Origin: Candidatus Bathyarchaeota archaeon
GTDB lineage: Archaea > Thermoproteota > Bathyarchaeia > Bathyarchaeales > DTEX01
DNA length: 64,000 nucleotides
Assembly (NCBI GenBank): GCA_018397065.1
Contig: JAGTRI010000004.1
Coordinates: 16,267 to 80,266, forward strand
Direction: 5' to 3'
Part shown: positions 45,775-49,243 of the stretch, one piece after another
How positions within the stretch are numbered: the stretch's first letter is position 1
How the letters are laid out: every line of letters begins with the position of its first letter
The notes under the pieces: model-generated
The model's input: only the letters and a program-made list of their open reading frames with translations
Told to the model about the DNA's origin: nothing
Database searches by the model: none
Made by a program: the position numbers and the translations under genes

Positions 45775-46471
45775 CGGAAAAGCCTCCTAACGGGGTAATC
45801 TTAAGAATCTCAATGATGAAAAATTAAAGGTGCATGTGGAATGTTGAGATTCAAGAATAAATAAACAAGAATAAACATTGAAGCATTGTTTAGTTTTAGA
45901 TCTTCGGGTTGGATCTTGGCAAAAATACGGATACATATTTTTCATAAGTTTCATTTCCATCATCTTTACAGTCCAACCCATCACGTGACATTCTGAACCT
46001 CTCAAATTAAAGCGCCGTTTAAGCACACTACTTATTTCGCTTCAAATTTGTTTTAAACCTTAAGAAAATGTTAAGACTTCACTTAAAAGAGTTTCCAAAA
46101 ACGAAATTACACACAGACAATGATATATCCGTGTTATCCAAAAATTTTATACATAATTGAATTAGCTGAAACTTAAAATAATCTTTAATCATTTTAACAA
46201 ATATCCTGTCTATTTTTCTTTTAGGTTGATTTCAAAACCAGAAAGCATTATCGTCAAGAGCGTCCGTAAAAAATTGGCTGTACCTGGTTTGCGCTAGATG
46301 TTTAAGCCTTTGCAACGTTGTTACGTGTAAATTTCTTTTCCTGTTGTTTTGTAAAAAAGAGAATTTAACATATATTACTCTTTTAATAAAAAAATTGGAA
46401 TAATGGATAAGACTCAGAAGCAACTATAGCTTTTTCTCAATCATATTCTAAAGGATTGTTGAATTTCTGAA

Positions 46472-46807
46472 TTATCTTCGTGTATTTTGCATTGGAAATC
46501 TTTTCATTATCTCTCTTAGCCTTCGTTTTGTCTCTGCTTGCATACTACTTTGAATAGGTTTTGTCGTCATTAAAGATTTGATGCTGTTCTTGGATGCACT
46601 ATCTCTGTTAGAAGTGGGTTGTGATATATCTGTAATTTTCTCGTGCATTTTCTGTAATTGAGCCCGCCTAAGTTGCGCGTTTTCCATCAGAAGAGATGTT
46701 TTTCTTTTCGGTTCTTGTACAAAATTCTGTACGTTTGTTAAGGCTGTTTTCGCACGTTTTATGTTTCTTAAGGCTTCTTTTATATCGTTTTTCTTGTAAC
46801 TCAACAT
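46472..46807 (-). CDS. hypothetical charged helical protein
   Basis: 111-aa ORF, no family recognised; 40 nt downstream of the repeat protein gene. Confidence 0.4.
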   Translation of the reverse strand: MLSYKKNDIKEALRNIKRAKTALTNVQNFVQEPKRKTSLLMENAQLRRAQLQKMHEKITDISQPTSNRDSASKNSIKSLMTTKPIQSSMQAETKRRLREIMKRFPMQNTRR

Positions 46808-46847: not shown

Positions 46848-48854
46848 TCACTGTTCCATGCCTTTCAGTTCTTGTGCAGAAATCGTAGTGGTTTGTCCCT
46901 CAGGCGACTTTAAAGTAAGTGATCCGTCAGGGTTCATTGTGGCACTGCTACCGTTTGGATAATTAACCGTCGTAGTACCGTCAGGATTAGCGACACCTGA
47001 ATAACCCTCAGGCGTACTAAAAGAGCCTGAACCGTCAGGATTTGCATTAATCTTTGTTCCATCCTGATCAGTATAGTCTATGGAACCATCCTGCTTTATG
47101 ACGGCTGAATTCCCCTCCTTGTCTTTTACGGTTATGTCTCCGCTGGAACTGACATCAACTGTCCGTCCGTCATTCAGCTCAAAATGGCCTTCCGTTATAT
47201 TGCCTTTGCTGTCGGCGCTAATTTTTGAGCCGTCCGCGGTTTGTACAGACATTGATCCGTCATTATGTATGGTAACTGTCCCTTCATTTGGTTTAGTAGC
47301 CATACGTGTTCCATCTGGCAAAAAAGTGCATTGAGTGCCGTCTTTATCTGTTATTGATCCAGAAATGTTGCCCTTCTTGTCCACAGTCATTGATCCTCCA
47401 TATGTTGATGTCACTGTCCAAGTTCCATCCGGATTCTTAGTTGCAGTCACACCTTCCATATCTCCTCCGAAGGTTTTACTAACTGTTTCACCGTCAGGAG
47501 TAAATGTTTCCGATGATCCATCAGGATTTGAAATCGTGATTTTGCCGTCTGGGTGAGTGGTAAGACTTCTTCCATCTGGAGCCTTTATTACGCTGGTGCC
47601 GTCTGGATATGATGTTTCAACTTTCCCATCAGGTGTATTTGTAACAACTGTTCCATCGGGATAAGTTGTCTCTAAGGTTCCATCCGGAGTATAAACCTTC
47701 TCTGTTCCATCAGGGTAAGATGTGTAGGTTGATCCGTCAGGACTCTCTGCATAGATTGTGCCATCCGTATATTTGGTCCCTACTGTGCCATCTGGTAAAT
47801 TTTTAGTAATTGTGCCGTCTGAATTATATTGGAATGTTGTTCCAGGAGGATCATTTGGGTCAGTTGAAGGTACAGGCCCTTCATAGACTGGAGGCACTTC
47901 GTAAACTGGTGCCTCTTCAGGAACCTCTGTAACCTCTTCTGGAAATTCGTCCACGATTTCTCCCGCGCCAATGCCACTTACTATGCCTGAAAATCCATTT
48001 GCAAATGAATGGTGAAGTTCTTCAAAATCTTGACTAATGTCAATCAGCATTCTTACTGTTGGCAGATTGATGTAAATTGACATTAACCCTTCTAGTAATT
48101 GTGTTCCTGCTGCCACAGGAAAAATCAAGGCAAGAGTAAACTTTCCATAGGACGGTGTAGCAGGTGTGCCCTTACTCAATCGATTGTGCAAAAGGTTATG
48201 CAGTATAACCAAGACTACGCCAATCCAAGCTAAATAGAATCCGACTTGAAAGAAGGGCATGTAGAAAAGCAGGTTTGCATTTCCGGTTGAGATCAAGTAA
48301 CTTATTGTTGGAGACAATGTAAAAAGCAACAGTCCAGCAACAGAAATGAGCGCATACTTCATCTTCTGCATTCTAAGGCTGCCCACAAACATGAGGATTA
48401 TACTGACTAAAACAATCAGCGGGGCGCCTGGATAGTAGTCAGGCATTCCCCAGTATTTTCCAGAAGTAGCCATCAAATTCTGAGGTTTTAAGACTACTAT
48501 GCTAAAATATTTCGGCAATGTGTCCGGATACTCGCCCGTGGAAAGGGTGAGTCCATTACCAAAAGGTAGAAGAAGCCCAAGTATTAGGAGTGTCCTACCA
48601 ACTATTGGAAGCAGAAAAGCAACAAGAGACTGCCAAGGTTGAACTGGAATCTTCAAGCGGCCAAAAACCTTCAAAACCAGCATGCCCGCGGCCATAGCAA
48701 CGACGACGCCAACTGCGCCGTCAACGAGAAAGCCTACCAGAAAACCAACAATCACTGCAACCACAGTCGGAATTCTGTTATGAAACTTTGAAGAAGACGC
48801 AGTTCCTCTAGAAAATCTTTCTTTGATATCAGAACCAAAATTTGTTTTTTGCAT
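46848..48854 (-). CDS. membrane-anchored protein with C-terminal 9-residue PDG beta repeats (TCP10/CPAP G-box-like)
   Basis: N-terminal multi-TM region, Pro/Glu linker (VDEFPEEVTEVPEEAPVYEVPPVYEGP), then DGTITKNLP-DGTVGTKYT-DGTIYAESP-DGSTYTSYP-DGTEKVYTP-DGTLETTYP-... at exact 9-aa spacing. Confidence 0.8.
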   Translation of the reverse strand: MQKTNFGSDIKERFSRGTASSSKFHNRIPTVVAVIVGFLVGFLVDGAVGVVVAMAAGMLVLKVFGRLKIPVQPWQSLVAFLLPIVGRTLLILGLLLPFGNGLTLSTGEYPDTLPKYFSIVVLKPQNLMATSGKYWGMPDYYPGAPLIVLVSIILMFVGSLRMQKMKYALISVAGLLLFTLSPTISYLISTGNANLLFYMPFFQVGFYLAWIGVVLVILHNLLHNRLSKGTPATPSYGKFTLALIFPVAAGTQLLEGLMSIYINLPTVRMLIDISQDFEELHHSFANGFSGIVSGIGAGEIVDEFPEEVTEVPEEAPVYEVPPVYEGPVPSTDPNDPPGTTFQYNSDGTITKNLPDGTVGTKYTDGTIYAESPDGSTYTSYPDGTEKVYTPDGTLETTYPDGTVVTNTPDGKVETSYPDGTSVIKAPDGRSLTTHPDGKITISNPDGSSETFTPDGETVSKTFGGDMEGVTATKNPDGTWTVTSTYGGSMTVDKKGNISGSITDKDGTQCTFLPDGTRMATKPNEGTVTIHNDGSMSVQTADGSKISADSKGNITEGHFELNDGRTVDVSSSGDITVKDKEGNSAVIKQDGSIDYTDQDGTKINANPDGSGSFSTPEGYSGVANPDGTTTVNYPNGSSATMNPDGSLTLKSPEGQTTTISAQELKGMEQ
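47470..47850 (-). repeat. 27-bp periodic coding repeat encoding the DGTxxxxYP units
   Basis: about 13 consecutive 9-codon units visible in the translation; degenerate repeats continue to about 46890. Confidence 0.8.
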
Positions 48855-49243
48855 AATATAACATTGGGTAAATAATATTTATAGCTTATTGACCAGATAT
48901 TTTATAAATTCATGCGGTATCGACCAACATTTTCCTTGACATCCTGATTTTTGTCTAACAATTGATACTAGCGAGATGTTTCTTTGAGATGAGAGAAAAT
49001 CAAAATTTTGAACACACTGAAAAACCATTATGAATAGCGCTATCTAAGGTTAGCTTGAAGAAAAGTTGAAGCTGCCGCACGATTTTTATGAAACGACTAA
49101 ATTATGTCGATGGTGCTTATTGTTAAAAATTTTGTTTACATTTCCAGAAAGTTTTTAAATATCTCTTGTTTAGCATTAACGATAAATATCTTAGTTGTTG
49201 TCAATACAAAAACATATTTGTTGGCTGCGGAAGGTGTAAAGCA

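Follow-up and report, generated by a model that had tools for sequence, protein, structure and literature searches.

The G-box of the centriole protein CPAP is said to be a unique open sheet. In the solved CPAP/CENPJ and Sas-4 domains (TCP domain, PF07202; 4bxp, 4bxr, 4ld1 and 4mpz), nine-residue units with PDG turns build a single-layer antiparallel beta-sheet that has no hydrophobic core. Its published length is about 9.2 nm (PMC5366329), and passages of PMC3776556 give it about 20 strands and describe how F978, Y996 and F1015 of zebrafish CPAP pack on prolines of STIL. Here we compare with this domain an archaeal protein encoded in a stretch of 64,000 nucleotides (the window, meaning the whole stretch that was analysed) from a Candidatus Bathyarchaeota genome. 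The protein shares the nine-residue PDG units and, according to our models, the core-less single-layer antiparallel sheet with aromatic residues at position 8 of alternate strands. We assign a probability of about 0.6 to the reading that it is an anchored cell-surface rod, in which seven transmembrane (TM) helices and a linker carry a single-layer antiparallel sheet of 35 strands whose Tyr edge holds a proline ligand.

Protein layout and family

The gene and its features are listed in Table 1. A Pfam scan of the 668-aa protein gave no convincing domain besides PF07202, and matches to aRib, bpX1 and CopK were rejected as domains, as they cover the same DG turns. The Pro/Glu linker that the sequence-only reading had placed between the membrane part and the repeats is present, and its final part is kept in the one relative that we found; this linker end, PxPSxDPNDPPGTT, is conserved (74% identity over residues 327-345). 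Within the membrane part, conservation is highest in the TM3-TM4 loop, which is predicted to lie outside and is strongly conserved in the relative, with the pattern NGLTLxTGxYPDTLxKYxSI...LxATSGK...WGxPDYYPGAPL.

Table 1. Features of the gene and its surroundings, in window coordinates
Feature	Position	Strand	Basis
Whole gene, putative 668-aa membrane-anchored beta-ladder protein	46848..48854	-	ORF with ATG start
Seven predicted TM helices, residues 28-43, 48-63, 72-99, 143-160, 166-190, 199-226 and 236-262	48069..48773	-	AF2 helices (pLDDT <50), hydropathy and loop charges
Predicted outer loop TM3-TM4, residues 100-142	48429..48557	-	Pairwise alignment with the relative's N-terminal part (G415 contig C74)
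Pro/Glu linker, residues 304-345	47820..47945	-	Alignment with the relative
Array of 13 consecutive nine-residue units, residues 346-462	47469..47819	-	Spacing and shuffle tests; modelled strands, pLDDT about 83-93
Rest of the ladder, with 21 more predicted strands and less regular turns, residues 463-659	46878..47468	-	Model and lag-9 autocorrelation
Short C-terminal helix, predicted to close the ladder, residues 660-668	46851..46877	-	DSSP, both models
Small basic ORF, 111 aa, immediately downstream	46472..46807	-	ORF list
TATA-box-like stretch CTATAAATATT, 20-30 bases 5' of the ATG	48874..48884	-	By eye

This relative, from a MAG labelled Candidatus Methanomethylicales (CALGKV010000029.1, a contig of 3420 bases), has the same order of parts and 45% identity to the window protein. 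Its N-terminus is cut by the contig edge, and a matching N-terminal part lies at the end of another contig of the same MAG (G415:C74). Searches with the TM part, using the single sequence on 257 genomes of the class and both sequences on 400 genomes of the phylum, found it in only these two genomes, that is in 2 of about 580 different genomes when both sets are pooled. A third, weak match among the 400 phylum genomes was judged to be noise, and N-terminal matches in other class members (L006-L009) and in G537 proved to be unrelated TM proteins or frames interrupted by stops. When genome contigs were scanned with the single protein no relative was found, and with the TM5-linker alignment as query one was; viral contigs yielded none.

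Matches to PF07202 are similarly sparse, occurring in 1 of the 257 class genomes and in 6 of the 400 phylum genomes (three of them over the cut-off). Two such matches (L013 and L014) were set aside as solute-binding-like proteins with NG turns only. A phage match (MW202691; L026 3826-4575) was also rejected, as it runs antisense to the annotated gene and consists of a PDAA repeat that contains a stop; the phage gene itself encodes (D/H)SAKLAASG-type repeats, whose antisense imitates PDG repeats and produces a false tblastn match.

The two genes have no neighbour in common except perhaps a small downstream ORF. In the relative a small basic ORF of similar size (104-114 aa; L022 1534-1878, minus strand) lies 5 bases 3' of the gene on the same strand, and its alignment with the window's small ORF beats shuffles (p 0.0025). 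BLASTP gave no match, and no further copy was present in 60 more class genomes; the ORF may be an operon partner. Otherwise the window gene lies between an MgtE-like gene downstream and an Rpb7-like gene upstream, as identified by Pfam, and the relative's neighbours are, by eye, nitroreductase-like and SOUL-like ORFs. The stretch of about 700 bases that separates the small ORF from the MgtE-like gene (window 45775-46471) holds no ORF of at least 80 aa.

An old array of fixed length

The period, the conserved strand positions and the row of Tyr residues discussed below can be read directly from the two proteins. The sequence-only reading had counted about 13 consecutive nine-residue units; there are exactly 13, with DG at residues 346, 355 and so on to 454 and all 12 successive spacings equal to 9. 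Residues 341-668 contain 16 DG pairs at distance 9, while 20,000 shuffles gave at most 3 (mean 0.05), which excludes chance. Self-identity over residues 345-460 reaches 0.39 for a lag of 9 and 0.50 for a lag of 18, compared with 0.01-0.11 for lags other than multiples of 9. The region beyond these units had been called degenerate; its turns are indeed less regular, but the period is kept (lag-9 identity 0.18 versus about 0.07), and the AF2 model continues the same strand ladder through it.

Codons for identical residues agree in 18 of 43 cases at lag 9 and 19 of 49 at lag 18. This is no higher than the 45% that codon usage alone predicts, and the array is therefore old, neither the product of a recent tandem duplication nor a misassembly. 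Comparison with the relative shows that each of the 13 units is closest to its own counterpart (2.46 versus 1.20 of the 6 strand positions), a correspondence with p below 5e-5, or 5e-5 with odd and even units kept apart. The C-terminal sheet regions of the two proteins are nearly equal in length (345 and 347 residues) and both are modelled with 35 strands. Together, the unit-by-unit conservation, the near-equal length and the equal strand number indicate a domain of fixed length and not an array with a variable number of repeats.

Predicted fold of the repeat half

With the two sequences as input, AF2 models residues 331-660 with pLDDT of about 79-94 as strands of 4-7 residues, mostly at nine-residue steps, and the C-terminal half of the relative, modelled alone and without an alignment, reaches a mean pLDDT of 85. 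Foldseek searches of the PDB, run separately with the two models, both place CPAP/Sas-4 G-box entries at the top (E down to 1e-11). For the CPAP G-box entries that superpose best, the TM-scores are 0.75-0.78 normalised to 4ld1/4lzf, with an rmsd of 3.4-4.5 over about 160 columns; the query-normalised scores are low (0.2-0.37) because the modelled sheet has about twice the length of the G-box. The single-layer sheets of Sas-4 and of engineered OspA are also among the matches. The likeness to the G-box noticed in the bare sequence thus reappears in the predicted structure, and the two other folds considered there, an RHS/YD shell and a beta-helix, are absent from the leading Foldseek matches.

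These models support the fold type of the G-box, an antiparallel sheet of one layer that turns at PDG and lacks a hydrophobic core, in which DSSP and the Foldseek superposition point to antiparallel pairing of the strands. The fold is a prediction, and the CPAP structures in the AF2 training set may have influenced it. The Pfam scan gave no RHS family and Foldseek a single teneurin-like match of TM-score 0.06-0.17, and the MORN_2 profile stayed below its cut-off (20.9 and 27.0 bits versus 29.6). Among the PDB entries that match by sequence or fold are SPAG17 and other central-pair chains (9ijj and 7sqc), and G-box-like sheets may be commoner in axonemal proteins.

Perfect repeats can be over-folded by structure predictors, and the repeat domain is low in hydrophobicity and rich in Thr, Ser, Gly and Asp. 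Both points would suit a low-complexity, mostly disordered stalk for which the modelled sheet is an artefact of repetitiveness. We regard such a stalk as improbable: the high model confidence also covers the ladder where it is less regular, the 13 units are conserved (58% identity) above TM5-7 (38%), and according to PMC3776556 a domain of known structure that shares these features is stable in isolation. A parallel beta-roll or solenoid, in which two nine-residue half-turns make one 18-residue coil as in RTX calcium repeats, would account for the period on paper and for an Asp and a Gly in every turn. The RTX nonapeptide GGxGxDxUx is, however, missing from the sequence and the best 50 matches of either Foldseek run include no beta-roll structures, and this geometry is very unlikely.

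A row of Tyr residues on one predicted edge

Neighbouring strands of an antiparallel sheet are flipped relative to each other, so equivalent positions recur on the same edge and face every 18 residues. The excess of lag-18 over lag-9 identity and the parity effect over unit pairs in the window protein (p 0.001) fit such a recurrence; in the relative the parity effect is not significant (p 0.31). When units two apart are compared with adjacent units, the difference in similarity has p 0.01 in the window protein and 0.02 in the relative.

Position 8 of units 2, 4, 6, 8 and 10 is Tyr or His (residues 362, 380, 398, 416 and 434), and the Tyr residues of units 2, 4, 6 and 8 (362/380/398/416 in the window protein) are common to both proteins. 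Corrected for the choice of position and parity, the Tyr row on even units has p 0.001 in the window protein and 0.02 in the relative. In CPAP (chain 4bxp), F978, Y996 and F1015 lie 18-19 residues apart and map onto position 8 of alternate units, with 932 subtracted from each residue number to give the chain position; this numbering fits all eight of the CPAP residues that the passage of PMC3776556 names. In the position of its edge aromatics the archaeal protein resembles CPAP specifically, over and above sharing a bare repeat.

Membrane topology

The sequence-only reading had counted about six TM segments, and hydropathy together with the AF2 model gives seven. AF2 confidence is low over all of these helices (pLDDT <50) and the family has only two members, so the topology rests on hydropathy and charge. 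The inner loops hold 11 Lys/Arg and the outer parts 4, and 13 acidic residues follow TM7. An inside N-terminus with either five or seven helices puts the C-terminus outside, and by hydropathy and charge bias the repeat half is likely extracellular, a location that the sequence-only reading had also considered.

Alternatively, the repeat half could be cytoplasmic and, in the manner of CPAP in the centriole, provide a scaffold on the inside. The number of TM helices is uncertain (strict hydropathy alone gives five, the model seven) and N-glycosylation sequons are scarce (3 and 1 in the two proteins), and both leave some room for this arrangement. Since five and seven helices alike lead outside and the charge bias concurs, we consider an inner scaffold unlikely.

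Proposed working of the protein

We return to the anchored cell-surface rod. In such a model the seven TM helices would serve as an anchor with the N-terminus inside, and the Pro/Glu linker would lead from them to the C-terminal half outside the membrane, which would form one long single-layer antiparallel beta-sheet of 35 strands. A regular strand would comprise about 4 residues and a turn about 5 residues around (P)DG. The sheet would have no hydrophobic core, and both faces would be Thr/Ser-rich and exposed to water, like those of the CPAP G-box. If each of the 35 strands adds about 0.46-0.48 nm, the rod would measure about 16-17 nm in length and 2-2.5 nm in width, sufficient to traverse an archaeal surface layer. 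Its role would presumably be that of a spacer, stalk or adhesin.

Because of the antiparallel flip, position 8 of alternate units would be aligned on one long edge, where the Tyr row could provide proline-stacking sites as in CPAP with STIL. We infer a proline ligand along this edge, likely either the linker of an adjacent copy or a Pro-rich stretch of a different protein; the analysis found no ligand. In a bolder version, to which we give little credence, the sheet binds proline peptides like CPAP, the ligand is the linker PxPSxDPNDPPGTT of a neighbouring copy, and the rods cross-link into a surface fibre or lattice. If true, this would be a self-assembling archaeal surface structure that uses a binding mode known from centriole assembly.

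PF07202 scores and the question of descent

The search with the Tcp10_C profile (PF07202, curated cut-off 36 bits) agrees with the first impression of the repeats, as the window protein scores 59.5 bits and the relative 73.5 bits, both above the cut-off. In addition, 77 residues align colinearly with zebrafish CPAP with a single gap, and both the nine-residue unit and the edge-aromatic position are the same. Taken with the scores, this could mean that the archaeal sheet and the G-box of eukaryotic CPAP/SAS-4 are truly related by evolution, through a shared ancestor or an ancient transfer and not by convergence. However, when the strand residues of the isolated native array (58 bits) were shuffled with DG and period kept, three versions still scored 36, 37 and 61 bits, whereas three versions with disturbed spacing gave 22 bits, none and 12 bits and two full shuffles did not score. 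PF07202 thus mainly reads DG turns at nine-residue spacing, and its score is no evidence for common descent.

Streptomyces AAWKG proteins also reach 73 bits, PF07202 is missing from nearly all phylum genomes searched, and a 'T-complex protein 10' motif has been listed for a protein of Legionella (PMC4256840). Prokaryotic PDG ladders are therefore known to databases, and a Pfam match does not prove ancestry shared with CPAP. We consider true kinship unlikely, and caution that prokaryotic PF07202 matches largely reflect a pattern (DG turn plus period 9) and are no proof of kinship.

Comparison with known systems

The fold type is already known, and we found no published description of such a sheet at this length, membrane-anchored and in an archaeon. 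The designed Cake/Scone propellers (6tjh and others) had the highest phmmer scores, owing to their DGT-rich repeats, but their repeats are 40 residues long and the large designs superpose poorly (TM-score 0.07-0.17, rmsd about 30). A Cake-like beta-propeller therefore fails as a description of the archaeal protein, and the kinship was rejected as a match by composition only. Borrelia OspA and its engineered versions (2hkd, 2fkj), which are among the Foldseek matches, share a free-standing single-layer beta-sheet; in OspA, however, the sheet lies between two globular caps and there is no array of PDG nonamers.

Among prokaryotic proteins, the Streptomyces AAWKG proteins (e.g. WP_326813247, L024), a name for which our literature search found no paper, share long DG arrays with a nine-residue period and a PF07202 match, and are probably exported. 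They differ in a large non-TM N-terminal part with helical repeats, in GPGG-type breaks, in the lack of a position-8 Tyr row and in being bacterial. Their genes (L024 1952-5404 and L025 2084-5389) belong to type VII secretion loci, where EccB and WXG100 genes are their neighbours, and the PDG array may act as a spacer once the protein is exported. Two proteins from another family of the same phylum (L010 and L012, from genomes G404 and G414, which look Nitrosopumilus-like in sequence style) share the PDG units and a PF07202 match; of 200 genomes from that family, 2 have such a match. They have a common C-terminal part (GKIQVKxGTSTxNF...) and differ from the window protein in both terminal parts, in having irregular arrays and in lacking the 7-TM anchor.

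If the sheet is real, a free-standing core-less sheet would be a general rod-building device, and a natural rod of defined length would be useful for work on core-less beta-sheets. It would also become testable whether the edge-aromatic mode of proline binding is older than, or independent of, centrioles. The closest system remains the G-box of CPAP and Sas-4, from which the archaeal protein differs in the predicted number of strands (35 versus about 20) and in the parts joined to the sheet. In CPAP/SAS-4 coiled coils and tubulin-binding parts precede it, neither of which appears in our Pfam scan or model; in their place the archaeal sheet is preceded by seven predicted TM helices. Unlike CPAP, the archaeal protein would probably be extracellular and function without a centriole or a STIL partner.
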